Of a stretch of 64,000 bases of DNA, positions 1,788 through 64,000 are shown piece after piece. Each line of letters starts with the position of its first letter. The first letter of the stretch is position 1. The translations under genes were made by a program, and so were the position numbers. The stretch spans positions 1 through 64,000 of the forward strand of contig SCSG01000020.1 in assembly GCA_004322135.1 (NCBI GenBank), in the 5' to 3' direction. The DNA is from Burkholderiaceae bacterium. GTDB taxonomy: Bacteria > Pseudomonadota > Gammaproteobacteria > Burkholderiales > Burkholderiaceae_B. The notes below the pieces were generated by a model. The model made no database searches. It was given only the letters and a program-made list of their open reading frames with translations, and was not told the DNA's origin.

Positions 1788-1981
1788 CGCGGCACGAGAC
1801 CATTGTCCGCGGCACGGGAATGCGCGAGTCAAATGGCTCCAGGGGTAATGAGCGGTCGGAATGGGGCCGATCCGCTTGGCGCACTCGGCGCAAATACGTC
1901 CATATGTAGAATGCGTCGTGCTGCGGTTCGAAAGATTTGCCATGCGCCTCATAAATGATAAAAATCAGGGACATATTAATC

Positions 1982-3154
1982 ATGAATTACAGGAAACTTT
2001 TGGTTGCTTCGTCGTTGGCTGTAGCCATGGGGGGCATGGGCGCGCCAGCCGTTGCCGAGCAGGTGACGATAGGCGTTATCACTACACTTAGCGGGCCGTT
2101 GGGGTCACAGGGCAAGAACATACGCGACGGCTTTGATCTTGCCGTGGCGGAAGCCGGCGGCAAATTGGGTGGCTTTGACACCAAGGTTATCGTCGAAGAC
2201 GACCAGGTGCGCCCGGATACCGGGCTGCAGGCGGCCCATAAGCTTATCGAGCAGGACAGGGCGCAAATCCTGACCGGCGTCGTGTTTTCCAATGTCGCGC
2301 TGGCAGTTGCCAAACCGGCGGCGCAGAACAAGGTCTTCTTCATCAGTCCCGTTGCCGGGCCTTCGCAGCTGGCCGGTAAAGGGTGTTCTCCCTATTTCTT
2401 CGTCACGTCGTGGCAGAACGATCAGCCACACGAAGCCATGGGCACCTATCTGCAACAGCAGCGCGTGAAAAGCGTGTATTTGATTGCGCCGAATTACGCG
2501 GCGGGCAAAGATGCCCTGCGTGGCTTCAAGCACGCCTATAAGGGCAACGTCGTGGCGGAAACTTATGTGGCCCTGAATCAACTGGATTACGCGGCAGAAA
2601 TTTCCAAGATCCGCGCGGCCAAGCCGGATGCGCTGTACGCCTTCCTGCCGGCCGGGATGGGCATCAATTTCACCAAGCAGTACGCCCAGGCAGGCCTGAC
2701 CGACAAGATTCCGATGTACTCGGCCTTTACGGTTGACGCCACGACGCTGCCTGCCATTGGCGAGGCGGCCGTGGGAACCTACCAGAGCAATCTGTGGAAT
2801 ACCGATTTTCCGAACGAGGCCAGCAAGCATTTCGTTGAGAAGTTCGAGGAGGCCTATGGGTATGTTCCTTCAAACTTCGCGGCGCAGTCGTACGATGTGG
2901 CGCGCATGATAGGCGCCGCGTTGAAGCAGGCGGGCGGCATTGCCAACAAGGATGCCTTTGCGGCGGCGCTGAAGCAGGCGAAGTTTGATTCGGTGCGTGG
3001 TTCGTTCACGTTCAACACCAACAACTATCCAATAGGTAATTTCTATCTGCTGAAGGTTGTGAAACAGCCCGATGGCAAGATCGTGCAAGTGACTCAGAAA
3101 AAGGTGCTTGCCGACGCCAAGGACGCCTATTATCAGGAATGCGCGATGAAGTGA
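1982..3154 (+). CDS. LIV-type ABC transporter substrate-binding protein (SBP1)
   Basis: A 390-residue periplasmic binding protein of the branched-chain amino acid/amide type (type I fold; VTIGVITTLSGPLGSQGKNIRDGFDLAV at the mature N-terminus). The start at 1982 is preferred over the in-frame ATG at 1955 because it gives the signal peptide MNYRKLLVASSLAVAMGG...AVA-EQ and aligns with the starts of SBP2 and SBP3. It is the most diverged of the three related SBPs in this cluster. It should deliver ligand to the LivHMGF transporter encoded at 8095-11450. The ligand is unknown; many proteins of this family in Burkholderiales bind aromatic acids, amides or nitrile-derived acids. Confidence 0.92.
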   Translation: MNYRKLLVASSLAVAMGGMGAPAVAEQVTIGVITTLSGPLGSQGKNIRDGFDLAVAEAGGKLGGFDTKVIVEDDQVRPDTGLQAAHKLIEQDRAQILTGVVFSNVALAVAKPAAQNKVFFISPVAGPSQLAGKGCSPYFFVTSWQNDQPHEAMGTYLQQQRVKSVYLIAPNYAAGKDALRGFKHAYKGNVVAETYVALNQLDYAAEISKIRAAKPDALYAFLPAGMGINFTKQYAQAGLTDKIPMYSAFTVDATTLPAIGEAAVGTYQSNLWNTDFPNEASKHFVEKFEEAYGYVPSNFAAQSYDVARMIGAALKQAGGIANKDAFAAALKQAKFDSVRGSFTFNTNNYPIGNFYLLKVVKQPDGKIVQVTQKKVLADAKDAYYQECAMK

Positions 3155-3337
3155 AGTCGTTCTGTATATTGGACGACCGACCTGAATATTGCTTTTTTTT
3201 TAGGGCCATGCTATTCAAGATAACGTGGCATCCTTGGTGGTGCCAACCGTTGGCATCAATGCGTGCCGGGGTTGGTGCTACATGCCGATGTCTGCGCCGT
3301 GCTTTCAAGCGCGGCGGACGTATAACAGGAGATGGGT

Positions 3338-4417
3338 ATGAGCGACGAATTGGGCACCATTAAATTGGCGGCTGTGCAGGCTGCGTCGGTGCATCTTGAC
3401 CGTGACGCGTCAGTGGAAAAAGCGTGCCGTTTCATTCACGAGGCGGGCAAGGCGGGGGCCAACGTCATTGGTTTTCCGGAAGGGTTCATCCCGGCGCACC
3501 CGTCGTGGTACACAGTCAGGCCCGCCACCGATCTGACAACATTGGGGTTGTCCCGAAAGCTGTTTCAGAACGCCGTGGTCATTCCAAGTGAAGCCACGGC
3601 GCGGCTTGCCACGGCATGCCGCGATGCGAATATCACGGCAGTGGTCGGGTTGTGCGAGAAGCGCCCCGATACGACTGGCACTATGTTCAATACGCAGCTT
3701 TTCATCGGCGCTGACGGTACTATTTTGGGCAAGCACCAGAAGCTGATGCCCACGGTGGGCGAGCGGCTGGTTCACACCGGGGGCTGGGGCGACACGCTGC
3801 AGGCTTTTCCCGCGCCGTTTGGCGCCCTCAGCGGCATGGTTTGCACCGAAAATGCCAATCCGCTGGCCACTGCCACAATAGCAAGCTACTACCCGCTGGT
3901 TCATGTGGCGGCGTGGCCGGCGTTCCTGTCGCCGGCGCACGAGCTGTCCGACATGATTAGCGCCGTAAGCCGCGGGCTGGCCGTCACCATGGGGTGCTAC
4001 GTCATCAACGCCGCGGGTGTGCTCGATCAGGCAACGATAGATGCCTACGAGGTAGGCGATGACGTGCGCAAGTTCCTGGAGAAAAGCAAGAATCGCGGCT
4101 TTGCCTCGATCATCTCTCCCACTGGACGGGTGTTGACCGAGCCGCTGGTCACGAAGGATGGGGAAGGTATTGTTTACGCCGACGTGGATCTCGACGCGAT
4201 AATGATACCCAAGCTCATCACCGACTTTGCGGGCCATTACAACCGTCCCGACGTTTTTTCGCTTACCGTGAATACGTCCGCGCCCAAGCTGGTTACGGCG
4301 CCGCGCAACTCCGGCTCCGACCCGATTGCCCCGGCTCCCGTTGAAGGGGCGGGTCTGGGCGGCCTCTCGGAGGATGCCCGCAAGGTATTGCGCAACATGG
4401 CCAGGTCCGAGTCCTGA
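3338..4417 (+). CDS. Nitrilase-superfamily hydrolase (CTEN active site)
   Basis: A 359-residue carbon-nitrogen hydrolase of the nitrilase branch. The triad is visible: Glu48 in FPEGF, Lys135 in KHQKLMPT and Cys169 in GMVCTENANPL. The Cys context is closest to the CGENTN group of nitrilases, with Thr in place of Gly after the Cys. The start at 3338 has AGGAG (3327-3331) at ideal spacing; the ATG at 3332 abuts that site and is unlikely. It presumably converts a nitrile to an acid plus ammonia in the cytoplasm. It lies between SBP1 and SBP2, so uptake and hydrolysis may be linked. A copy of its 3' end lies at 6170-6240. Confidence 0.88.
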   Translation: MSDELGTIKLAAVQAASVHLDRDASVEKACRFIHEAGKAGANVIGFPEGFIPAHPSWYTVRPATDLTTLGLSRKLFQNAVVIPSEATARLATACRDANITAVVGLCEKRPDTTGTMFNTQLFIGADGTILGKHQKLMPTVGERLVHTGGWGDTLQAFPAPFGALSGMVCTENANPLATATIASYYPLVHVAAWPAFLSPAHELSDMISAVSRGLAVTMGCYVINAAGVLDQATIDAYEVGDDVRKFLEKSKNRGFASIISPTGRVLTEPLVTKDGEGIVYADVDLDAIMIPKLITDFAGHYNRPDVFSLTVNTSAPKLVTAPRNSGSDPIAPAPVEGAGLGGLSEDARKVLRNMARSES

Positions 4418-4959
4418 TGTTGGTGGGCGTGTTGCCACCGCCCGATTTGCGGAGTACCCCTGTAGTTTTGAGGGTTACTCCCATGAATGGAAAATAATCA
4501 ATGACTTATCATTGTCAGCAAGAATCGAAAGTGTCGGATAGTTACGAAGGTTGTCGAGCCATGACCGCAGGAGCTGGGTTCGTCGCACAGGGTGCGGCGT
4601 CCGGCGCCGGGCAAAGGCGGGCCGATGGATGCAGTGGGCGGGTGCGCAGCGGGGCGCACGGTGTGGCACGGGCAACGCCGGGATCATAGAAATTTAATTA
4701 CGTTCGGCGTTGTTCAGGTAGTAACAAGGGTTGCGTCTGAATGCGCTCAACGTTCAGGTAATACGTGGTTTTTGGCGCAAGCCGTTCAACGGCTGAGTGG
4801 CTTGATTTTCAGGTCAGCCAGTCAGGCGTTGGGTTTGCAATTGTTGGGGCTACAAGCGGCTGGAACAAGGCTGAACCGGGTTTGCGTCTGGTTTAAAAAG
4901 CTTTTGTTATTGTCGGACACCTTGGGGCTTATTTAATCAGTCTAGGAGACAGAACAATC
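4418..4959 (+). other. Long leader of SBP2 (542 bases, no gene)
   Basis: No gene is seen. The stretch holds copy 2 of the conserved element and then ~450 bases that reappear, clearly homologous, in front of SBP3 (6300-6805). The conserved length and lack of coding capacity suggest an untranslated leader or distal promoter. The ribosome binding site of SBP2 (TAGGAG) is at its end. Confidence 0.6.
4471..4514. promoter_or_regulatory. Conserved element copy 2, candidate IclR operator
   Basis: AGGGTTACTCCCATGAATGG followed by AAAATAAT, then CAATGA-CTTA-TCATTG (4499-4514), a perfect 6-4-6 dyad. It is equivalent to copies 1 and 3. Confidence 0.62.
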
Positions 4960-6141
4960 ATGAAATGCAAGCAACTTTTGGTGGCTTCTGCATTAGCTGC
5001 GGCCATAGGTATGCTGGGTGCCCCGGCAAGTGCCCAATCGAAAGATCAGGTCCGGATAGGGCTTATTACTACGCTTAGCGGTCCCACCGGTGCGCAGGGC
5101 CAGAACATTCGCGACGGCTTCGACCTGGCCATGGACGAGGCCGGGGGCAAGCTGGGCGGCTTTGACACCGAGGTCATTCTTAAAGACGTCAAGTTGCGTC
5201 CCGATCTGGCTGTTCAAGACGCCAATAAGCTTATCGAGCAGGACAAGATCCAGATTTTGACCGGGGTGCTTTATTCCCAGGTGGCTCTGGCAATCGTCAA
5301 GCCTGCCGTCGAGAACAAGGTGTTTTTCATCAGCCCCAATGCCGGGCCTGCGCAGATGGCTGGCAAAGGTTGTTCTCCATACTTCTTTAATATGTCGTGG
5401 CAGAACGACCAGCCGCACGAAGCCATGGGCGCCTATCTGCAAAAGAAGGGTGTGAAAAGCGTGTATCTGATTGCGCCGAATTTCGTCGCCGGTCATGATG
5501 CCATGCGCGGTTTCAAGAGCGCCTACAAGGGCAAGGTGGTGGCCGAGACCTATGTGGCCATGAACCAGCTTGATTTCGCGGCCGAGATTTCCAAGATTCG
5601 CGCGGCCAAGCCCGATGCGCTGTATGCCTTCCTGCCTGCCGGCATGGGGATCAATTTCACCAAGCAGTACGCCCAGGCGGGTTTGACCGACAAGATCCCG
5701 ATGTATTCGAACTCCACGATCGACAGCATTTCGCTGCCGGCTATTGGCGAAGCGGCAGACGGCACGTACCAGAGCAACCTGTGGAATTCGGATTTCCCGA
5801 ACGAGGCCAGCAAGAATTTCGTCAAGAAGTTTGAGGCCAAGTATCACTACGTTCCCACCAATTTTGCGGCGCAGTCGTACGACGTTGCGCGCTTGATCGG
5901 CGCGGCGTTGAAACAGGCGGGCGGCATCACCAATAAAGATGCCTTCCGCGCGGCACTTAAAAAGGCGGACTTTAAATCGGTGCGTGGTTCGTTCAAGTTC
6001 AACACGAACCAATACCCGATCAGTAACTTCTATATCCTGAAGACCATAAAAGGGCCCGATGGCAAGATGGAGCAGGTTACCCAGGAAAAAATACTTTCCG
6101 ACGCCAAGGACACCTATTACAAGCAATGCCCGATGAAGTAA
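4960..6141 (+). CDS. LIV-type ABC transporter substrate-binding protein (SBP2)
   Basis: A 393-residue exported binding protein. Signal peptide MKCKQLLVASALAAAIGMLGAPASA is cleaved before QSKDQVRIG; the mature protein has the LSGPTGAQGQNIRDGFDLAMDEAGGKLGGFDTE opening and the YAFLPAGMGINFTKQYAQAGL segment typical of this subgroup. It is nearly identical to SBP3 over its full length, with differences clustered around residues 75-115. That region borders the ligand cleft in this fold, so the paralogues may differ in ligand range. It arose by the tandem duplication described under the repeat entry. Confidence 0.93.
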   Translation: MKCKQLLVASALAAAIGMLGAPASAQSKDQVRIGLITTLSGPTGAQGQNIRDGFDLAMDEAGGKLGGFDTEVILKDVKLRPDLAVQDANKLIEQDKIQILTGVLYSQVALAIVKPAVENKVFFISPNAGPAQMAGKGCSPYFFNMSWQNDQPHEAMGAYLQKKGVKSVYLIAPNFVAGHDAMRGFKSAYKGKVVAETYVAMNQLDFAAEISKIRAAKPDALYAFLPAGMGINFTKQYAQAGLTDKIPMYSNSTIDSISLPAIGEAADGTYQSNLWNSDFPNEASKNFVKKFEAKYHYVPTNFAAQSYDVARLIGAALKQAGGITNKDAFRAALKKADFKSVRGSFKFNTNQYPISNFYILKTIKGPDGKMEQVTQEKILSDAKDTYYKQCPMK

Positions 6142-6169
6142 GGCGCTTTGATCCTTGCAAGGTAATCCC

Positions 6170-6240
6170 TTGCAGGGGTGGGGCCGGGCGGCCTCTTTGA
6201 GGGTGCCCACAAGGTATTGCGCAGCATGGCCAGGCCGGGG
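6170..6240 (+). pseudogene. Nitrilase gene 3'-end remnant
   Basis: The stretch GGGCGGCCTCTTTGAGGGTG and the CAAGGTATTGCGCAGCATGG that follows shortly after match the last ~70 bases of the nitrilase gene (about 4342-4411), which encode GLGGLSEDARKVLRNMARS. The stop codon region has decayed and there is no start. It marks the left end of the second duplication unit and shows that a breakpoint fell inside the nitrilase gene. Confidence 0.8.
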
Positions 6241-6301
6241 TGCTGGTGCCCGGTCTGGCATGTTGTGACAGCCCGATTTGTGGAGTGTCCCGTTGATTTT
6301 A

Positions 6302-6345
6302 AGGGTTACTCCTATGAATGGAAAATGATAAATGATTTATCATTG
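6302..6345. promoter_or_regulatory. Conserved element copy 3, candidate IclR operator
   Basis: AGGGTTACTCCTATGAATGG then AAAATGATA, then AATGAT-TT-ATCATT (6331-6344), a perfect 6-2-6 dyad. It is about 460 bases upstream of the SBP3 start, as copy 2 is for SBP2. Confidence 0.62.
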
Positions 6346-6805
6346 TCATCGTAAATGGAATGTGTCGGATGATTACGAAGGCTGTCGAGCCATGACTGTA
6401 GGTTCTGGGTCCGTCGCGCCGGGCGTGGTGTCCGGCGCCGTGCAAGGGCGGGTCAATGGAAGCAGTGGGTTGGTGCGCTGCGGGGCGCACTGGGTGGCAC
6501 GGGCAATGCCGGGATCATAGAAATTTAATTACGTTCGGTGTTGTTCGGGTTAGTAACAAGGGCTGCGTCTGAACGCGCCCAACGCTCAGGTAATACGTGG
6601 TTTTTGGCATAAGCCGTTCAGAGGCTGAGTGGCCTGAATTTCAGGCCGGCCGGTCGGGCGGTGGGTTTACAATTTGTTGGGGGCTACAGGCGGCTGGAAC
6701 AAGGCTGAATCGGGTTCGCACCCGGTTTGCACTTGGTTTGAAAGTTTTTGTGTATCGTCCGACACCTTGCGGCTTACTTAAATTAGTCTAGGAGACAGAA
6801 CAATC

Positions 6806-7987
6806 ATGAAATGCAAGCAACTTTTGGTAGCTTCTGCATTAGTCGCGGCTGTTGGTATGCTGGGTGCTCCCGCAAGCGCCCAATCGAAGGATCAGGTCAG
6901 AATAGGGCTTATCACCACACTTAGCGGCCCCACCGGCGCGCAAGGCCAGAACATCCGCGACGGCTTCGACCTGGCCATGGACGAGGCCGGCGGCAAGCTG
7001 GGCGGTTTCGACACCGAGGTACTTGTCAACGACGTTCAACTACGGCCCGACCTGGCTTTGCAAATGGTCAACAAGCTTATTGAGCAGGACAAGATCCAGA
7101 TCCTGACTGGCACAATTTATTCCAACGTGGCATTGGCGGTAGTTAAATCTGCTGTTCAGGCCAAGGTGTTTTTCATCAGCCCCAACGCCGGGCCTGCCCA
7201 AATGGCTGGCAAGGGTTGTTCCCCGTATTTCTTTAACACGTCCTGGCAGAACGATCAGCCGCACGAAGCCATGGGTGCCTATCTGCAAAAGAAGGGCGTG
7301 AAAAGCGTGTATCTGATTGCCCCCGATTACATTGCGGGTCATGATGCGCTGCGCGGTTTCAAGAGCGCTTATCACGGCAAGGTGGTTGGCGAGACGTACG
7401 CGGCGTTGAAGCAGCTTGATTTCGCGGCTGAAATTTCCAAGATTCGCGCGGCCAAGCCCGATGCGCTGTATGCCTTCCTGCCTGCCGGCATGGGCATCAA
7501 TTTCACCAAGCAATATGCCCAGGCTGGCCTGACCCACAAGATTCCCATGTATTCGAACTCCACGGTCGACAGCATTTCGCTGCCGGCTATTGGCGAAGCG
7601 GCAGACGGCACGTACCAAAGCAATCTGTGGAATGTCGATTTCCCGAACGAGGCCACCAAGAATTTCGTCAAGAAATTCGAGGCCAAGTATCACTACGTTC
7701 CCACGAATTTTGCCGCGCAGTCGTATGACGTGGCGCGCATGATCGGTGCGGCGTTGAAGCAGGCGGGCGGAATTACCAATAAAGACGCTTTTGCTGCGGC
7801 ACTGAAAAAGGCAGATTATCCTTCGATTCGCGGTAAATTCACGTTCAATACGAATAACTACCCGATCAGCAACTTCTACATCCTGAAAACCATCAAAGGG
7901 CCCGATGGCAAGATGGAACAGGTGACTCAGGAAAAAATTCTTTCCGACGCCAAGGATGCCTACTACAAGCAGTGCCCAATGAAGTAA
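6806..7987 (+). CDS. LIV-type ABC transporter substrate-binding protein (SBP3)
   Basis: A 393-residue exported binding protein, the downstream copy of the SBP2/SBP3 duplication. It has the same signal peptide (MKCKQLLVASALVAAVGMLG...ASA) and the same ribosome binding site context (TAGGAGACAGAACAATC before ATG). It is closest to the permease genes, so it is probably the main binding protein of this transporter. A strong hairpin between it and livH may lower expression of the membrane components relative to the SBP. Confidence 0.93.
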   Translation: MKCKQLLVASALVAAVGMLGAPASAQSKDQVRIGLITTLSGPTGAQGQNIRDGFDLAMDEAGGKLGGFDTEVLVNDVQLRPDLALQMVNKLIEQDKIQILTGTIYSNVALAVVKSAVQAKVFFISPNAGPAQMAGKGCSPYFFNTSWQNDQPHEAMGAYLQKKGVKSVYLIAPDYIAGHDALRGFKSAYHGKVVGETYAALKQLDFAAEISKIRAAKPDALYAFLPAGMGINFTKQYAQAGLTHKIPMYSNSTVDSISLPAIGEAADGTYQSNLWNVDFPNEATKNFVKKFEAKYHYVPTNFAAQSYDVARMIGAALKQAGGITNKDAFAAALKKADYPSIRGKFTFNTNNYPISNFYILKTIKGPDGKMEQVTQEKILSDAKDAYYKQCPMK

Positions 7988-44917: not shown

Positions 44918-46336
44918 ATGAACACTGTTGCTGACATCAAATTCTCGGATTACAAAGTTGCCGATATTGCCCTGGCTGGCTGGGGACGTCGCGAAATTGC
45001 TATCGCCGAAACCGAAATGCCGGGCCTGATGGCTACGCGCGAAGAATACACTGCCGCCCAGCCCCTGAAGGGCGCCCGCATTGCGGGCAGCCTGCACATG
45101 ACGATCCAGACCGCCGTGCTGATTGAAACGCTGGTTGCTCTGGGCGCCCAGGTGCGCTGGGCATCGTGCAATATTTTTTCCACGCAGGATCACGCGGCTT
45201 CGGCCATTGCCGCTTCGGGCACGCCGGTTTTCGCCGTCAAGGGCGAGTCGCTGGAAGAGTACTGGGACTACGCCCACAAGATCTTCGAGTGGCCGAACGG
45301 CGAGCAGGCCAACATGATTCTTGACGACGGCGGTGATGCCACGCTGTTGCTGCATCTGGGCGCCAAGGCCGAGAAGGACGTCTCGGTTCTGGCCAAGCCC
45401 ACCAGCGAGGAAGAGCGTGTGTTGTTTGCCTCCATCAAGGCAACGCTGGCGCGCGACCCCAAGTGGTATTCGGTGCGTCTGGCACAAATCAAGGGTGTGA
45501 CCGAGGAAACCACCACGGGCGTACATCGTCTTTATCAGATGTCGCAGAAGGGCGAGCTTGCCTTCGCGGGCATCAATGTGAACGATTCGGTCACGAAATC
45601 CAAATTTGACAACCTGTATGGCTGCCGCGAGTCGCTGGTCGATGGCATCAAGCGCGCCACCGACGTCATGGTGGCCGGCAAGATCGCCGTTGTGTGCGGG
45701 TTTGGTGACGTGGGCAAGGGTTGCGCACAGGCTCTTGCCGCGTTGCGCGCGCAAGTCTGGGTAACCGAGATCGACCCGATCTGCGCGTTGCAGGCTTCGA
45801 TGGAAGGCTACCGTGTCGTCACCATGGAAGAAGCGGCAGACAAGGGTGACATTTTCGTGACGGCTACGGGCAATTACCACGTCATCCGGCGCGAGCATCT
45901 GGACCGCATGAAAGACCAGGCCATTGTTTGCAATATCGGACACTTCGACAGCGAGATTGATGTGGCTTCCGTTGAAAGCCTGCAATGGGAAGAAATCAAG
46001 CCGCAAGTCGACCACATTATTTACCCCGACGGCAAGCGCATCATTCTGTTGGCCAAGGGGCGCCTGGTGAACCTGGGCTGCGCCACGGGTCATCCTTCGT
46101 TCGTGATGTCGGCGTCGTTCACCAACCAGACCATTGCACAAATTGAGTTGTTCACGCATGGTGAAGCCTACGAGAAGGGCAAGGTATACGTATTGCCCAA
46201 GCACCTTGACGAAAAGGTGGCGCGTCTGCATCTGAAGAAACTTGGCGTGAATCTCAGCCAGTTGAGCAAGGCGCAGGCCGACTACATCAATGTGCCGGTG
46301 GACGGTCCTTACAAGCCCGACTACTACCGCTACTAA
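44918..46336 (+). CDS. ahcY: Adenosylhomocysteinase
   Basis: A 472-residue NAD-dependent enzyme that splits SAH to adenosine and homocysteine. Visible are [35 protein letters not shown], the NAD motif [22 protein letters not shown] and the C-terminal [10 protein letters not shown]. It is controlled by the SAH riboswitch. Most homologues end in PDHYRY; the His is Tyr here. Confidence 0.98.
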
Positions 46337-58047: not shown

Positions 58048-58336
58048 GGCGTTGCTCCTGCGGTTCGTTGGGTTGGTCGACAAACACCGGGCTGCAGGAT
58101 ATCTTTATACCTGCAGTCGCGGTCCAGCTTCGTGGCATTGAGTAACGACCCATGACTGTGATGGAACAGAAATGTTCAGCCAGGCGTGGCGCGATTCGCG
58201 GCCGGCAAAACATGCTTGACGTTTTTTTTATGACAGGATATCTTGTATACAATATACGTTTGGCCTTGATCTGACGCAGCGTTCGTGACGGGGTCGATCG
58301 CCTCTTGTGCGTGGTGTTTCAATTTGAAGAATTGCC
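58048..58336. other. Divergent regulatory region, VOC gene / molybdoenzyme
   Basis: A 289-base region with the promoter and the GntR-type operator of the molybdoenzyme gene. No gene is seen in it. Confidence 0.5.
58216..58252 (+). promoter_or_regulatory. Promoter with GntR-type operator (site 1)
   Basis: TTGACG (-35, 58216-58221), a 17-base spacer and TATCTT (-10, 58239-58244). The perfect palindrome TTGTATACAA (58243-58252) overlaps the -10 box, as expected for repression. The same palindrome lies in front of the nitrilase operon. Confidence 0.65.
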
Positions 58337-59362
58337 ATGTCCGTAGATAAATGTGAAATGGCGTGGGTGAAGCCGCCCATGCTTATCAATAATTTCCCGA
58401 TGAACATCCCGGCACGCGAGCTTACCAGCCGAATCACGCCGGTCGACAAGATGTTCGTGCTGGCGGCAACGGGCATACCGCAGGTGGATGTGGACCAATG
58501 GCGCTTGCAGATTGGCGGCATGGTTTCACGTCCGATTACGCTGGATTTTCCGCGGCTCCTGAAGTATTCGAAAATCGAGCTCGAAGCCTGCCATGTGTGT
58601 GCCGGGAGTGCCGTGAACGCGCGTGCCGCGGTTCACCGGGTGGCCAACGTGGCGTGGGGTGGTGTCGCGCTGGTTGATCTCCTCGAGGGTACACAGCTGC
58701 GGACGTCGGCGAAATTCCTATGGGCCTACGGGCTGGATCATGGCACGTATCGCGAGCATGTGGTGAATTCGTACATCAAGGACATTCCTCTTGATCGATA
58801 TTTCATCGAGGACCTGATGGTCGCCTATGAATTGAACGGCAAGCCTCTGTCCCCCGAGCATGGCTATCCGGCGCGCCTGGTTGCCCCAGGGCTTTACGGT
58901 ACCAATATGGTGAAGTGGCTGACCTGCCTTTGGTTTTCCGACGAGCGTGCACCCGGCGCGTTCACGCATGAGTTCTATAACGATCCGGAACTTGGGGCTG
59001 ACGGCAATGCCACAGGCAGGATGTTGCCCGTGTGGGAAGTGCAGCCGGACGCCATATTGGTTGGTCCGCAGGCGGGGGTCAAAGTAGGCGAGGAAACGCT
59101 GCTGTGGGGATGGGCCTGGTCAGGATGCGACGTGGTCCGGGTGGAAGCCAGCACGGATGGCGGGGCCACCTGGCAGCGCACGCGCCTGCAGGCGCGGGAG
59201 CATGAAGCCTGGCAGCGCTTCGATCTGCCCTGGACGCCCACGGCGGCCGGCAGGCACGCGTTGGTGGTGCGTGCCACGGACAGTCATGGCGTGACGCAGC
59301 CCTCTGTAAGTGCTCGCAATGCTCAGTTCCGCTGCCAGGTGGACGTCGAGGATGCGGCTTGA
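58337..59362 (+). CDS. Sulfite oxidase-fold molybdopterin oxidoreductase
   Basis: A 341-residue Mo-enzyme with the oxidoreductase molybdopterin-binding domain (about 50-225) and a C-terminal Ig-like dimerisation domain (about 230-335). The Mo-ligating Cys is in ACHVCAGSAVNARA, which differs from the common CAGNxR wording. GYPARLVAPGLYGTNMVKWLTCL is a conserved family segment. There is no Tat signal, so it is cytoplasmic or exported with a partner. Substrate unknown; sulfite or S-oxides are possible. It is probably in the GntR regulon of this cluster. Confidence 0.9.
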   Translation: MSVDKCEMAWVKPPMLINNFPMNIPARELTSRITPVDKMFVLAATGIPQVDVDQWRLQIGGMVSRPITLDFPRLLKYSKIELEACHVCAGSAVNARAAVHRVANVAWGGVALVDLLEGTQLRTSAKFLWAYGLDHGTYREHVVNSYIKDIPLDRYFIEDLMVAYELNGKPLSPEHGYPARLVAPGLYGTNMVKWLTCLWFSDERAPGAFTHEFYNDPELGADGNATGRMLPVWEVQPDAILVGPQAGVKVGEETLLWGWAWSGCDVVRVEASTDGGATWQRTRLQAREHEAWQRFDLPWTPTAAGRHALVVRATDSHGVTQPSVSARNAQFRCQVDVEDAA

Positions 59363-59906
59363 CGATCCGCACAACGGCTGCTGGAGCAAGCGCTTGGCTG
59401 GTCTGACTGAGTTCCGTCGGCGCAGCGGACGAGTGCGTCTGGCTGGAGTTGTGCAGGAGAACCTTCAGAGCACGAGGCCGTTGCGTCAGGTTGTCTTGTA
59501 GGGGAGGTAGTCGTACGCACCCACACCTTGCACGCTAATAAAACGGCAGGGCCCGGGCCCTGGATTGAAGGGCCGGTGGGCAGTGCCCACGTCCACCTTG
59601 GCCGATTCACCTACGTCAAGCTCGATGTCGGGCTGTCGCCTGCCACTGGATATTTCAATGCGTCCGACTTGCAGGTGCCCTTCCAGGCAGTAAAAAATGT
59701 CGAAAATATTCGAGTGGCTGTGCCAGGGAATCTCTTCTTTTGCGGCCAGCAGGAATTCCTTGACGTAAACGTCGGTGCCCTTGGCCACCAGCTTGCGTGA
59801 CGATATCGTGAAATTGGTGCTTTGCTCTTCCTGAGCCGCGAAGCGTTTCGTAGTAACCATTCGATTTCCGCAAATGAGTCAAGGCAGGTGGACGTCGTGG
59901 ATGCGG
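59336..59906. repeat. 22-base direct repeat flanking the cupin gene
   Basis: CAGGTGGACGTCG-x-GGATGCGG occurs at 59336-59357 (end of the molybdoenzyme gene, x = A) and 59885-59906 (between cupin and GntR genes, x = T), same orientation, 21 of 22 bases identical. Confidence 0.6.
59486..59860 (-). CDS. Cupin-domain protein
   Basis: A 124-residue single-domain cupin. The metal-site histidines are in IPWHSHSNIFDIFYCLEG (HxH) and a later VDVGTAHRPFNPG. It has no signal peptide. It lies 61 bases downstream of the GntR gene, in the same direction, and is probably co-transcribed with it. It could be an oxygenase, an isomerase or a binding protein. Confidence 0.88.
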   Translation of the reverse strand: MVTTKRFAAQEEQSTNFTISSRKLVAKGTDVYVKEFLLAAKEEIPWHSHSNIFDIFYCLEGHLQVGRIEISSGRRQPDIELDVGESAKVDVGTAHRPFNPGPGPCRFISVQGVGAYDYLPYKTT

Positions 59907-59921
59907 TCCGATCGTTGGAGG

Positions 59922-60713
59922 TCAGCCTTGCGCGGCACGCAACTGTTTTACTACTTCGCCGCCGTGCTTGAAGATGTGTGCCCTGAGAATCTCTTTGGCC
60001 TTGTGGGCGTCGTGGCAGCCGCACGCCTTTGCGATCTGGCGGTGTTCTTCAAGGACCACTTCCCATTCGAGGCGATTCGCGTGCAGGGGTGTTGCCTTTG
60101 CCGCACCGCGTGCTGTGTGGGCCTGCGCTGTATTGAGTCGTGTGCGCAGCTGGCGTGCAAAAAGCTGATGCAGGTTTTCGATGGTGGTCAGCAACCGCGG
60201 CCGTTCCGCCACGTTGTAAATGCGTTTGTGGAAGGCCCAGTTCATGCTGCCCCAGCGCGATTCGAATTCCTCTTGCAGGTCTTCGTTGCCTGCTGGCGGC
60301 ATCTTGCGTTGTGACTCGGTCACAAGCTTCAAGGCGTCGTCCAGATCCTTTTTGGTGAAATTCTCGGCGGCCAGTTCCAGTGCCAGGCTTTCCAGCGCGA
60401 AGCGCATTTCCAGGATTTCGTTGAAGTCGTCCGCTGACAGGCTGGTGACAATGACACCGCGCCGCGGTTGTGTTTCGACCAGGCCCTCGCCTTCCAGCTT
60501 GAGAAGGGCTTCACGCACCGGGATGCGGCTTACGCCAAGCTGTTTGGCCAGATCCGCCTGACGCAAGGTAGTACCACCTGCCAGGGCGCCATCCAGGATC
60601 GCTTGCCGCAAGATGCGCGAGATGCTTTCGGCCGCTGTTGGAGATTGTGCGGAGAAGCCGGCAAGGTAGGAGTTGAGGTTCATGGATGGCGGGATAGCGA
60701 TGGATTGCGGCAT
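59922..60713 (-). CDS. GntR-family regulator (FCD domain) of the nitrilase cluster
   Basis: A 263-residue regulator: winged helix (TTLRQADLAKQLGVSRIPVREALLKLEGEGLVETQPRRGVIVTSL) and FCD domain (FNEILEMRFALESLALELA ... NWAFHKRIYNVAERPRL ... EHRQIAKA). The ATG at 60713 has AAGGA nine bases before; the longer frame upstream is non-coding. It is divergent from the nitrilase gene. The palindrome TATTGTATACAATA between them, repeated before the molybdoenzyme gene, is its likely operator. Confidence 0.92.
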   Translation of the reverse strand: MPQSIAIPPSMNLNSYLAGFSAQSPTAAESISRILRQAILDGALAGGTTLRQADLAKQLGVSRIPVREALLKLEGEGLVETQPRRGVIVTSLSADDFNEILEMRFALESLALELAAENFTKKDLDDALKLVTESQRKMPPAGNEDLQEEFESRWGSMNWAFHKRIYNVAERPRLLTTIENLHQLFARQLRTRLNTAQAHTARGAAKATPLHANRLEWEVVLEEHRQIAKACGCHDAHKAKEILRAHIFKHGGEVVKQLRAAQG

Positions 60714-60730
60714 TTTAACCGGTCCTTCCG

Positions 60731-60770
60731 TTGACACGTGGATATTGCTTTGTGTATATTGTATACAATA
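60731..60770 (+). promoter_or_regulatory. Nitrilase promoter with GntR-type operator (site 2)
   Basis: A perfect TTGACA (-35, 60731-60736), 18-base spacer and TATATT (-10, 60755-60760). The perfect 14-bp palindrome TATTGTATACAATA (60757-60770) overlaps the -10 box. Binding would repress the nitrilase operon and probably the divergent GntR gene too. Confidence 0.75.
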
Positions 60771-60832
60771 CGGGTTGAAATTCAAGGTGTCGGAGCCGAG
60801 GGGTAGGTGGTGGGCTTTCGTCGAGGGGTGTG

Positions 60833-61855
60833 ATGGGAATGGAACAGAAGTTTCGGGTGGGGGTGGCGCAGCTAAGGCCTGCGCGCGACGCGCAGGATGC
60901 GGTAGAACGCATTGCGCAGATGGCGGCCGACGCCGCCACGAAGCATGTGCGTCTGGTGTTGTTTCCAGAGGCGTATGTGGGCGGCTACCCACGCGGGTCA
61001 GGCTTTGGGACGCTGGTGGGCCAGCGCACTGACTCTGGCCGTGAACAGTTCCAGCGGTATTGGGAGGCGGCGATCGACGTGCCGGGCAAGGAATGTGAGC
61101 AGCTTGGAGAAATCGCGCGACGCCATGAAACGATACTCGTCGTCGGTGTGATCGAACGGGAACTGGGCACGCTGTACTGCACGGTGGTGTTTTTCTCGGC
61201 CGGCGGTGTGCTTTTGGGGAAACATCGCAAGCTGATGCCCACGGGTGCCGAGCGGCTGATCTGGGGGTTTGGCAATGGTTCGACCATGCCGGTGCTCGAC
61301 ACGCCGGTCGGCAAGGTGGGGGCGCTGATCTGCTGGGAAAACTACATGCCGTTGATGCGCACGGCGCATTACGCCAAGGGTATCGAGATCTATTGTGCCC
61401 CTACGGCTGACGGCCGCGACACGTGGTTGCCGACGATGCGGCACATTGCGATGGAAGGGCGCTGCTTCGTGCTTTCAGCCAATCAGTTTGCGCGCCAGAG
61501 CGACTATCCGAAGGCTTCTTTCAGTGAATCGTCGGCCGGTGGGGCCGATCCCATAGTTTCGCGCGGCGGCAGTTGCATCGTCGACCCGTTCGGCAAGGTG
61601 CTTGCCGGGCCGGACTTCGAGGGTGAGGCATTGCTGGTGGCGGAGGTTGATCGGGGTGCCATCGCGCGCGCGAAATATGACCTTGACGCGGTGGGCCACT
61701 ACGCTCGTCCAGACGTGTTTTCGCTGCAGGTGAATGAATCGGACACCCGGCCCGTTGTGTTTCACTCGACTACCGGGGCGCAGGCCGCGGTCACCGGTCC
61801 GAAAGATTTCACGGACGCCGGGCAAGCAACTTTCAAGAAAAAAATTTCAACGTAA
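60833..61855 (+). CDS. Nitrilase
   Basis: About 340 residues with the complete nitrilase triad: Glu46 in FPEAYVGGYPRG, Lys133 in KHRKLMPT and Cys167 in ICWENYMPLMR. These are the wordings of true plant/bacterial nitrilases, so it should hydrolyse a nitrile (R-CN) to an acid plus ammonia in the cytoplasm. GAGGGG at 60823-60828 allows starts at 60833 or 60839. It is first in an operon with a dehydrogenase and a reductase gene, under a GntR-type operator. Confidence 0.93.
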   Translation: MGMEQKFRVGVAQLRPARDAQDAVERIAQMAADAATKHVRLVLFPEAYVGGYPRGSGFGTLVGQRTDSGREQFQRYWEAAIDVPGKECEQLGEIARRHETILVVGVIERELGTLYCTVVFFSAGGVLLGKHRKLMPTGAERLIWGFGNGSTMPVLDTPVGKVGALICWENYMPLMRTAHYAKGIEIYCAPTADGRDTWLPTMRHIAMEGRCFVLSANQFARQSDYPKASFSESSAGGADPIVSRGGSCIVDPFGKVLAGPDFEGEALLVAEVDRGAIARAKYDLDAVGHYARPDVFSLQVNESDTRPVVFHSTTGAQAAVTGPKDFTDAGQATFKKKIST

Positions 61856-61865
61856 GGTCAAGAGA

Positions 61866-62945
61866 ATGACTACAGTGGGTGCAACCACCTATCGCATTGC
61901 CGTGATTGCGGGCGATGGAATTGGCAAGGAAGTGGTTCCCGAAGGGCAGCGTGTCCTTGATGTGGCGGCGCGCCGGTTTGGTTTTTCACTGCACTATGAC
62001 GCGTTCGACTGGAGCTGCGACTATTATTTGCAGCATGGCCGCATGATGCCCGAAGATGGCCTCGCCCAGATTCGTCACCATGACGCCGTCTTTCTGGGTG
62101 CTGTGGGGTTTCCCGGTGTGCCCGATCACGTCTCCCTTGGCGGGTTGCTGCTGGCGATTCGACGCGGCTTTCAGCAGTATGCCAATATCCGCCCCATACG
62201 CCTGATGCCCGGTGTCCGGTCCCCGCTGGCTGACCGCAAGCTGGGCGACATAGACATGATTGTGGTGCGAGAAAATACCGAAGGCGAATATTCCAGTATT
62301 GGGGGCCTGATGGCAGTGGATACGCCCGAGGAGGCCGCCATTCAGGTCAGTACGTTTTCGCGAAAGGGCGTGGACCGCATTCTGAAATATGCGTTTGAAA
62401 CGGCGCGCCAGCGCAAGGCAAAGCACGTCACGTCTGCGACCAAATCCAATGGCCTGGCCATTACCATGCCGTATTGGGACAAGCGTTTCAAGCTTATGGC
62501 AGAGCACTACCCCGACGTGAAGACAGATCAGTATCACATTGATATTCTGGCAGCGCAGTTCGTGATGAATCCACAACGCTTCGACGTCGTCGTCGCGTCC
62601 AACCTGTTCGGCGACATCTTGTCAGACCTTGGACCGGCCTGTACCGGGACGATAGGCATTGCCCCTTCCGCCAACCTGAATCCGGAAAAAGAGTTCCCTT
62701 CCATGTTCGAGCCTGTGCATGGTTCGGCGCCCGACATCTATGGGCAGAACATTGCCAACCCGATCGGCCAGATCTGGTCCGGGGCGTTGCTGCTGGAGCA
62801 TCTTGGCCAGGCGCAGGCTGCGGCGGCCATTGTGCGCGGCATCGAGCATGTTCTTCAATCGGGACCCAGGACGCGTGACATGGGCGGGAAGGCCTCGACG
62901 AGCGAGGTCGGACAGGCTATCGCCCAGGCTGTGGGAACGGTGTAA
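61866..62945 (+). CDS. Tartrate/D-malate dehydrogenase-type enzyme (isocitrate dehydrogenase fold)
   Basis: A 359-residue NAD-dependent beta-decarboxylating dehydrogenase: YRIAVIAGDGIGKEVVPEG, SCDYYLQHGRMMPEDGL (characteristic of the tartrate dehydrogenase/D-malate dehydrogenase group), VRENTEGEYSSIGG, SNLFGDILSDLGP and EPVHGSAPDI. It probably oxidises a 2-hydroxy acid such as D-malate or tartrate to a keto acid plus CO2. It starts 10 bases after the nitrilase stop; ribosome binding site AAGG. Confidence 0.92.
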   Translation: MTTVGATTYRIAVIAGDGIGKEVVPEGQRVLDVAARRFGFSLHYDAFDWSCDYYLQHGRMMPEDGLAQIRHHDAVFLGAVGFPGVPDHVSLGGLLLAIRRGFQQYANIRPIRLMPGVRSPLADRKLGDIDMIVVRENTEGEYSSIGGLMAVDTPEEAAIQVSTFSRKGVDRILKYAFETARQRKAKHVTSATKSNGLAITMPYWDKRFKLMAEHYPDVKTDQYHIDILAAQFVMNPQRFDVVVASNLFGDILSDLGPACTGTIGIAPSANLNPEKEFPSMFEPVHGSAPDIYGQNIANPIGQIWSGALLLEHLGQAQAAAAIVRGIEHVLQSGPRTRDMGGKASTSEVGQAIAQAVGTV

Positions 62946-62961
62946 TTCTAAAAGGAAACTC

Positions 62962-63903
62962 ATGAGAATTCTGATACTTGGTGCGGGTGGGATTGGTGGC
63001 ATCGTTGGTGGGCGATTGGCGCAAAATGGCGCGGACGTTACTTTCCTGGTGCGCGACGCTCGCAAGAAAATACTGGACGCGAAGGGCTTGCAAATCGAGA
63101 GCCCCTACGGCAATGCCTCTATTCCGGTCACAGCCAGGCTGGATAAAGAAATTACTGACCATTACGACTTGGTTCTGCTTGCCTGCAAGGCTTATGACCT
63201 TGACTCTGCGATTGCGTCGATTCGTCCCGCCATGGGGCCGTCGTCTTGTGTGCTGCCGATCCTGAACGGAATGGCACACATCAAGCGCCTCAACGACGAG
63301 TTCGGGGCGCAAAGGGTGCTGGGCGGCACCATCAAGATGCAGGCCACGCTCACTCCAGATGGAGGGGTGCGGCAGCTTAGCGACTGGCAGACGCTGACCT
63401 TTGGTGAACAGGATGGCCACGCGAGCCCGCGGACTGCCGAGTTCAAGGCTCTGCTGGACAAGACGGGTATTGATGTCAAGCTCACCGAGCATGTCATGCA
63501 GGCGCTGTGGTCGAAGATGGTTCATCTTGCGACCGCTGCGGGGATGACTTGTCTGATGCGCGCGAACATCGGAGAAATTGCCCGCACGCCCGAGGGTACG
63601 GCACTTCTGCGTCGCTTCCTGCTAATGAACGCAGATATTGCGGGCCATGCGGGCTATCGGCCCAATGACGAATTCCTTGAGGGGTATATGAAGCTGTTTG
63701 GTCAGACCGACGCGCGCTACGAGGCCTCGATGCTAAGGGACCTGGAGCGCGGCGGGCGTATCGAGTCGGAGCAGATCCTGGGTGACATGCTGGTCCAATG
63801 CCGTGCAGCGGGTCTTGACGATGCCTTGCATCTTGCCGCCTACACGCACGTCAAGTCCTACGAGCAAAGACGGGACGCGGGAAGGCTGCCGGGGCATTCG
63901 TGA
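62962..63903 (+). CDS. 2-dehydropantoate 2-reductase-family protein
   Basis: A 313-residue NADP-dependent reductase (ApbA/PanE fold): MRILILGAGGIGGIVGGRLAQNGADVTFLVRD, the conserved Lys in LACKAYDL and NGMAHIKRL, and a C-terminal helical domain. In a catabolic operon a keto-acid reductase or dehydrogenase on another substrate is more likely than pantothenate synthesis. AAAGGA precedes the ATG. Confidence 0.9.
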   Translation: MRILILGAGGIGGIVGGRLAQNGADVTFLVRDARKKILDAKGLQIESPYGNASIPVTARLDKEITDHYDLVLLACKAYDLDSAIASIRPAMGPSSCVLPILNGMAHIKRLNDEFGAQRVLGGTIKMQATLTPDGGVRQLSDWQTLTFGEQDGHASPRTAEFKALLDKTGIDVKLTEHVMQALWSKMVHLATAAGMTCLMRANIGEIARTPEGTALLRRFLLMNADIAGHAGYRPNDEFLEGYMKLFGQTDARYEASMLRDLERGGRIESEQILGDMLVQCRAAGLDDALHLAAYTHVKSYEQRRDAGRLPGHS

Positions 63904-63927
63904 TGGTGTGTCAAGGATGGAAGAAAA

Positions 63928-64000
63928 ATGACGACGCTGGATATTCTATGCGCGGGCGCAACGAAGGCTGCCATGATGGATTTTTCCACGTGGCTTGCCC
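63928..64000 (+). CDS. Partial gene at the right edge, possibly a ModA-like binding domain
   Basis: Only 24 residues are visible (MTTLDILCAGATKAAMMDFS...). The LxILxAGATK opening resembles signal-less substrate-binding-domain (ModA-like) proteins found in Burkholderiales catabolic clusters. The ATG follows GGATGGAAGAAAA. The call is tentative because the gene runs out of the window. Confidence 0.4.
   Translation, partial: MTTLDILCAGATKAAMMDFSTWLA

Follow-up and report, generated by a model that had tools for sequence, protein, structure and literature searches.

Nitrilases of the NIT4 type are found in plants and also in bacteria, with PinA presumably one of the bacterial 3-cyanoalanine nitrilases of this type. 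Such enzymes convert 3-cyanoalanine to aspartate and ammonium, and according to PMC8567248, nit4 homologs of bacteria that share the gene context of P. pseudoalcaligenes (cio) had not been described. The same source gives radical SAM, acetyltransferase and AIR-synthase-like proteins as the partners of Nit1C, a nitrilase-centred gene cluster for cyanide/nitrile assimilation in proteobacteria. The sulfite dehydrogenases SorA, SorT and SoxC and sulfite oxidase have a molybdenum (Mo) fold with a dimerisation domain, a Mo-ligand Cys and an active-site Tyr. A known tartrate dehydrogenase/decarboxylase (TTC) is represented by structure 3flk, which we take to originate from Pseudomonas putida.

Here we describe a gene cluster at the right-hand end of a window of 64,000 nucleotides (the whole stretch of DNA analysed, positions 1 to 64,000 of contig SCSG01000020.1, contig C9 in our set) from the 3.38 Mb genome of a Burkholderiaceae bacterium. 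A nitrilase gene heads an operon with genes for a TTC, a ketopantoate-reductase-family (PanE-like) oxidoreductase and a ModA-like protein, while a GntR/FCD regulator gene is divergent from it and a gene for a sulfite-oxidase-fold molybdoenzyme lies further to the left. Compared to NIT4, Nit4 and PinA, the window nitrilase differs in its company of GntR, TTC, PanE-like and molybdoenzyme genes, and compared to 3flk, the TTC differs in being encoded inside a nitrilase operon. These genes probably form one GntR regulon for a nitrile-bearing acid, with the molybdoenzyme included, as predicted from the features described below. The new points are the operator evidence and the recurrent pairing of the molybdoenzyme with nitrilases: a few full-text literature searches, with most subscription journals outside their coverage and hence weak as evidence of absence, yielded no paper linking a nitrilase with a molybdoenzyme, and none combining a nitrilase with tartrate dehydrogenase and 2-dehydropantoate 2-reductase, or the plasmid pRL8 with a nitrilase and the rhizosphere; papers matched more loosely did not look relevant by title and opening of the abstract.

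Cluster recurrence and a predicted GntR operator

Neighbourhood comparison revealed the cluster core in five more genomes of the order, namely in Candidimonas nitroreducens (L037), Ramlibacter alkalitolerans (L045), G021 (L115), G245 (L178) and G247 (L179); a further locus (L116/G062) appears to be a repeat of the Candidimonas one. This recurrence indicates that the gene set is more than a chance assembly. The GntR gene is divergent from the nitrilase gene in all six clusters, and the PanE-like gene follows the nitrilase, as the first or second gene after it in one run, in six of six, counts that are due in part to selection because the clusters were found via nitrilase or PanE queries. As a background control, 80 of 248 confirmed nitrilase loci, all from genome contigs and some of them short, were kept, and 2 of these had a PanE-like gene; among 20 family loci flanked by 1.5 kb, 3 had one, the window included. 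In the sample of the order, PanE-like proteins at least 62% identical to the query were restricted to three genomes (the window's, G245 and G247), all with a nitrilase in the same gene run, and ten more distant relatives from one genus (55-57%) had no nitrilase in the available flanks, which for two of them were viewed to ~19 kb. The cupin gene is shared by three of the six clusters (window, L037 and L045), and Bug-like substrate-binding proteins of the tripartite-tricarboxylate type are encoded close by in the five other clusters.

All six GntR/nitrilase intergenic regions contain GTATACAA, a part of the palindrome ATTGTATACAAT. With at most one mismatch, this palindrome was found at two places in the 64-kb window (0.02 expected), exactly the nitrilase (ATATTGTATACAATAC) and molybdoenzyme (ATCTTGTATACAATAT) promoters, and with at most two mismatches a third place was added at 45923 (0.68 expected in all). 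Across the whole genome, four places had at most one mismatch, two of them in the window cluster, compared to one place for a control pattern. Matches with two mismatches or better were also present in L037, L115, L179 and the G245 molybdoenzyme locus L197. A weight matrix made from the six nitrilase-promoter sites only, and rendered symmetrical, put the molybdoenzyme promoter on top in three genomes. In the window this promoter scored 25.5 bits, ahead of the nitrilase promoter (24.3) and the third-best site (15.1). In Ramlibacter it scored 21.3 bits, with a site that separates the molybdoenzyme gene from a divergent Bug/ModA-like pair (nitrilase 19.2, following site 9.4), and in G245, which has the molybdoenzyme gene on another contig than the nitrilase cluster, 18.8 bits. 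The ranks were unchanged when the genome's own nitrilase site was left out of the matrix (24.0 bits for the window, L009; 20.8 for L045; 18.9 for L197). Six sites in 2.3 Mb of other DNA reached 18.8 bits, all in Bacillota loci, and the best site in 61 proteobacterial loci (0.7 Mb) had 15.3 bits, with the window's own copy (L208) set aside. Orphan nitrilase loci (four in the nitrilase clade and a fifth outside) and seven plasmid loci had no comparably strong site, with best values of 6.1-15.3 bits.

These patterns suggest that two promoters, the one shared by regulator and nitrilase and that of the molybdoenzyme, would be bound by the FCD-type GntR protein at ATTGTATACAAT-like palindromes, and that it would let go of them upon accumulation of an acid intermediate. 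The palindrome also offers a direct handle on the pathway, as the substrate should follow once the GntR ligand is found. A sequence-only reading of this DNA had named co-expression of the genes and recurrence of the set in relatives as tests of its proposed catabolic system; the core was indeed found in the five other genomes, and co-expression is now predicted from the conserved gene neighbours and the operator-like palindrome.

Two one-mismatch copies of the palindrome were observed elsewhere in the genome, between a Rieske-oxygenase-like gene and another GntR-like gene as judged by eye (L220; contig C45, ~282940-283281), which hints at a related regulator whose operator is similar. In Candidimonas, additional matrix sites at L037:3912 and L037:8319 (20.7 and 16.6 bits) precede genes for an alpha/beta hydrolase and a Bug protein, and a Bug-TTC gene pair, respectively.

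The molybdoenzyme subfamily and its nitrilase partners

The molybdoenzyme is a member of a rare sulfite-oxidase-fold subfamily. At an E value of 1e-60 it was detected in 2 of 398 genomes of the order, the window's and G245, both of which carry the cluster (at most five candidates were scored per genome), and at 1e-40 in 1 of 151 family genomes (the window's); when the Ramlibacter protein served as query, 1 of 398 phylum genomes had a match (again the window's). Among solved structures, SorA and sulfite oxidase are closest to it in sequence, and it lacks an apparent signal peptide as judged by eye. Its scores against the sulfite dehydrogenase models were far below the cut-offs (152 vs. 420 for SoxC, 133 vs. 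600 for SorA and 109 vs. 570 for SorT), and four relatives likewise stayed under them.

Ten members (window, Ramlibacter, G245 and seven plasmid loci) were aligned with SorA, with a Deinococcus relative as outgroup; variant SorA entries in the alignment mark where Arg55, His57 and a Tyr lie. We take this Tyr to be number 236 and Arg109 to lie five residues after the Cys ligand, and the functional roles given to these residues are likewise assumed. Similar to the sulfite-oxidizing enzymes, the members compared retain the Mo-ligand Cys and the Tyr, the latter in a YN(D/R) motif. Unlike these enzymes, they have no Arg at either of the two positions expected to bind sulfite: in all ten members, V, L or T stands in place of Arg55 and a residue other than Arg at Cys+5, whereas the Deinococcus relative has Arg at both. 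Other arginines lie nearby, in Ramlibacter one at Cys+6, and may replace the missing ones in function. The Cys signature is usually CAGS, with CFGS in Variovorax and CAGN in Bosea. A plain sulfite oxidase role was judged unlikely on account of the low family scores and the two positions without Arg, and the sequence suggests that the protein is probably not a sulfite oxidase. A relative from Deinococcus aetherius (L215:6953-8050), with both Arg present, was observed within a 4-hydroxyphenylacetate degradation operon.

On plasmids, 62 records matched the Ramlibacter molybdoenzyme and 60 were listed; 34 in all are from Rhizobium and the others from Bradyrhizobium, Sinorhizobium, Neorhizobium, Variovorax, Bosea and other genera; the source field of many names legume roots or nodules. 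Among the matches listed, 54 of 60 have a nitrilase gene of another subfamily within 2 kb of the molybdoenzyme gene (42 from joined tables and 12 more). Because many of the 60 records are near-copies, independent adjacency amounts to about seven genera. The plasmid-type nitrilase shows a CGEN motif and 24-26% identity to that of the window in the four members aligned. Exceptions to the close pairing are Methylobacterium nodulans, with the nitrilase at 3.1 kb, and two Neorhizobium galegae plasmids, with the nitrilase at 15.8 kb; no nitrilase was found within 7 kb of the molybdoenzyme in Sinorhizobium chiapasense, and no nitrilase match is listed for two Deinococcus plasmids. A 49-residue nitrilase match is located between the Rid and molybdoenzyme matches of N. 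galegae HAMBI 540 (L213:2781-2927), in addition to the full-length one 15.8 kb away. The plasmid-type nitrilase was also observed without the molybdoenzyme on many B. glumae plasmids; in the one opened (L212) it lies beside a cation acetate symporter gene, with no molybdoenzyme annotated nearby.

In R. johnstonii 3841, the nitrilase/molybdoenzyme pair is located on pRL8. This plasmid is described as pea-rhizosphere-specific in the available part of PMC3333776, and neither that part nor the portions available of other R. leguminosarum literature held anything specific on the pair. Such rhizobial LysR-Rid-nitrilase-molybdoenzyme loci resemble the window in having the same molybdoenzyme subfamily beside a nitrilase, but differ in the CGEN nitrilase subfamily and an adjoining LysR gene. 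A Rid-family hydrolase and a pyridoxal phosphate (PLP) enzyme are encoded alongside at three opened rhizobial loci, and malonyl-CoA genes lie near two rhizobial-type loci; no TTC or PanE-like gene is annotated at the opened rhizobial loci, for which the annotation tables are incomplete.

A wider interpretation, which we hold only tentatively and would not expect to prevail, is that the molybdoenzyme subfamily, having lost sulfite binding, is a dedicated nitrilase partner in alpha- and betaproteobacteria and has teamed up independently with two or more nitrilase subfamilies. It would catalyse an undescribed Mo-dependent step, e.g. cleavage of the N-O bond of an oxime or isoxazolinone by reduction, and so supply nitrile catabolism; in rhizobia the compound broken down would probably be a legume root metabolite. 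If the link between nitrilase and molybdoenzyme holds, a testable joint function, perhaps the use or detoxification of a legume root compound, could be assigned to a set of rhizobial plasmid genes whose only annotations are "molybdopterin-dependent oxidoreductase" and "carbon-nitrogen hydrolase family protein".

Operon enzymes, candidate route and alternatives

The closest solved structure to the window nitrilase by sequence is plant NIT4 (387 bits; next 3wuy, 188 bits), with which it shares the CWEN motif in the alignment, and similarity and catalytic motifs place it, by prediction, in the NIT4 type. Membership in Nit1C was rejected, with a TIGR04048 score of 206.4 bits against a cut-off of 502.6 and none of the radical SAM, acetyltransferase or AIR-synthase-like partners seen among the cluster neighbours (those on the right side by eye). 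Relatives of the window nitrilase on Variovorax and Rhizobium plasmids (L187 and L206) directly precede a serine/threonine dehydratase gene, possibly another recurrent pair. The TTC exceeds the TIGR02089 cut-off (544.5 vs. 470.4 bits), just misses PRK08194 (499.5 vs. 501) and matches 3flk with 513.6 bits over nearly its full length. The PanE-like protein belongs to subfamily TIGR00745 (190.9 vs. 141.35) and just misses the equivalog NF005094 (355.7 vs. 382). The ModA-like protein scored far below the ModA equivalog (29.4 vs. 288 bits) and has no apparent signal peptide by eye, and so does not qualify as the molybdate-binding protein ModA. Its relatives at 1e-20 are found in 73 of 399 genomes, with only G245 besides the window reaching 46%, and plasmids gave no match at 1e-20; the protein is only loosely specific to the cluster. 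Pseudomonas aconitate isomerase is of the ModA-like type.

For the proposed regulon, the NIT4-like nitrilase would convert a nitrile to a carboxylate and ammonia, the PanE-like enzyme would interconvert a 2-oxo acid and an (R)-2-hydroxy acid, and the TTC would oxidatively decarboxylate the resulting hydroxy-dicarboxylate. TTC enzymes have D-malate activity, and a candidate route would run from 3-cyanopyruvate to (R)-3-cyanolactate (PanE-like enzyme), on to D-malate and ammonia (nitrilase), and to pyruvate and CO2 (TTC). This route would employ the three operon enzymes with consistent stereochemistry; by itself, we consider it rather unlikely. PMC8567248 proposes the nitrile left by 3-cyanoalanine deamination as the substrate of the NitC nitrilase in Pseudomonas pseudoalcaligenes. 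The molybdoenzyme, in turn, may perform an oxygen-atom-transfer step other than sulfite oxidation that prepares the nitrile or handles a by-product. Thus, the part of the sequence-only reading that saw a nitrile turned to an acid, followed by hydroxy-acid oxidation and decarboxylation, is retained as one predicted catabolic unit of a nitrilase followed by hydroxy/keto-acid enzymes. Its view that the molybdoenzyme had no obvious role was too cautious and is revised: the gene is not an odd bystander, because it has a predicted operator in common with the nitrilase and its relatives pair with another nitrilase subfamily on plasmids.

Several observations weigh against a single regulon of this composition. 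The TTC gene is absent from L045 and L179 and the ModA-like gene from L115 and L179 (each present in four of six clusters). The molybdoenzyme was not found in three of the six cluster genomes (G021, G062 and G247, if the genomes sampled were the same in each search), so the core can do without this enzyme; the completeness of G021 is 75% and that of G247 87%. A single-clade origin of the cluster nitrilases was unsupported, as the 12-row clade (100/85) also includes six other rows, from four genomes, for which no PanE-like gene was detected in the available DNA. Neither L045 nor L178 has a ATTGTATACAAT match at two mismatches or fewer, so that the sites of Ramlibacter and the G245 nitrilase locus are called by the six-site matrix only, and the latter site falls inside the gene start first chosen by the script, a later ATG having been adopted. 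The regulon may also be wider than the drawn pathway because the Candidimonas matrix sites precede other genes. No aminotransferase or transporter gene was seen in the window cluster, and binding, expression and enzyme function are all predicted from sequence.

Among the alternative explanations, it is somewhat unlikely that the enzyme is a beta-cyanoalanine nitrilase (NIT4/PinA type) serving nitrogen supply or cyanide detoxification, with the TTC and PanE-like enzyme merely co-housed for an unrelated hydroxy acid such as tartrate. The closest structure, the aspartate and ammonium formed by NIT4-type enzymes (PMC8567248) and the two plasmid relatives adjoining a dehydratase gene agree with this role, but the nitrilase and PanE-like genes share one gene run in all six clusters (found through these two genes), and no asparaginase, aspartate enzyme or cyanoalanine synthase gene was seen in the window cluster. 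We consider it very unlikely that the palindrome is the operator of a different GntR/FCD protein in this genome, in which case shared sites would be no proof of a regulon with this nitrilase. The two contig C45 sites, flanked by genes named by eye as a Rieske-type oxygenase and a further GntR-type regulator, would fit such an explanation, whereas the conservation of the GTATACAA core between GntR and nitrilase in six of six genomes and the site before the G245 molybdoenzyme gene on a separate contig argue for the regulator encoded here.

With regard to the molybdoenzyme, an ordinary sulfite dehydrogenase that shares the promoter type by chance, e.g. for disposal of sulfite from a sulfonated or sulfur-bearing substrate, is decidedly unlikely. 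The fold and the top structural relatives are those expected, a TauD-type dioxygenase gene is present in the Candidimonas cluster and OsmC-type genes are present in two clusters (L178 by scanning, one by eye); however, the SoxC, SorA and SorT scores are far too low, both presumed sulfite-binding Arg positions are without Arg in all ten members while the Deinococcus relative keeps both, no cytochrome gene was seen beside the molybdoenzyme gene, and Candidimonas, with TauD, gave no molybdoenzyme match, its place in the sample being presumed. Equally improbable is that the molybdoenzyme acts first, by reductive N-O opening of an isoxazolinone, oxime or N-hydroxy compound, to yield a nitrile or related acid for the nitrilase and later enzymes. 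Pairing with two nitrilase subfamilies (24-31% identity), the Rid-family hydrolase and PLP enzyme at three rhizobial loci, and malonyl-CoA genes near two loci, which fit conversion of cyanoacetate to malonate, are in line with it. Pea, lentil, vetch and their relatives, plants in which isoxazolinones occur, account for many of the plasmid sources. For the rhizobial-type pairs, one may speculate on a path from legume isoxazolinone to cyanoacetate and malonate. The N-O chemistry is speculative, however, as is the step from isoxazolinone to cyanoacetate, on both of which compounds nothing usable was found in the literature; the plasmid sources also include other legumes, and the window organism has no known plant link.

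Gene layout and genomic surroundings

Genes were called by reading both strands of 52-64 kb and by protein family scans, which upheld the gene list of the sequence-only reading (Table 1). Within the four-gene operon, the gaps are 10, 16 and 24 bp with starts set by a codon-usage script. Extension to the right added one further co-directional operon gene, for the ModA-like protein; the genes beyond it, named by eye as a DEAD-box helicase gene (other strand), a uracil-DNA glycosylase gene and trp genes, look like housekeeping genes apparently unrelated to the operon. Of the rightward genes, which the sequence-only reading had named as a test, one belongs to the operon.

Table 1 Features of the nitrilase cluster and predicted operators.
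Feature	Position	Strand	Details
Predicted GntR operator ATCTTGTATACAATAT	58240-58255 (match at 58242)	.	Molybdoenzyme promoter, ~85-95 bp upstream of start; one mismatch to ATTGTATACAAT
Sulfite-oxidase-fold molybdoenzyme	58337-59362	+	PF00174, 138.8 bits; Mo domain and dimerisation domain; alternative start 58358
Small single-domain cupin, 124 amino acids	59486-59860	-	PF07883; downstream of GntR/FCD regulator
GntR/FCD regulator	59922-~60713	-	Family scans; divergent from nitrilase; alternative start near 60683
Predicted GntR operator ATATTGTATACAATAC	60756-60771 (match at 60758)	.	Between regulator and nitrilase
Nitrilase	60839-61855	+	PF00795, 194.5 bits; CWEN motif
Tartrate/D-malate-type dehydrogenase (TTC)	61866-62945	+	TIGR02089
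Ketopantoate-reductase-family (PanE-like) 2-oxo/2-hydroxy-acid oxidoreductase	62962-63903	+	Family scans
ModA-like protein, 229 amino acids	63928-64617 of contig (window holds 63928-64000)	+	PF13531

The whole nitrilase cluster is held in a block of ~10.7 kb (54602-65323, contig coordinates) that is missing at that place in the one congener (G016) and the one genome of another genus (G127) opened for comparison by DNA matching. G016 matches the window up to 54.6 kb and again from 65.3 kb, with ~0.7 kb between, and its best nitrilase match is only 35%; in G127, matches stop at 54.3 kb and restart at 65.6 kb, with 1.0 kb between. Further genes of the block code for a pirin, a glyoxalase, a LysR regulator and, as named by eye, a WrbA-like protein. 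It looks like an insertion, which is the simpler reading of these comparisons, with two deletions as a possible alternative.

The presence of two unrelated nitrilases in the window had been called notable: the two are unrelated (27% identity), but this is weak evidence because the genome has eight genes of the carbon-nitrogen hydrolase family and the two lie ~56 kb apart. Around the first nitrilase gene (3332-4417), three similar genes for branched-chain-type solute-binding-like proteins were seen by eye (1955-7987), possibly a tandem expansion.

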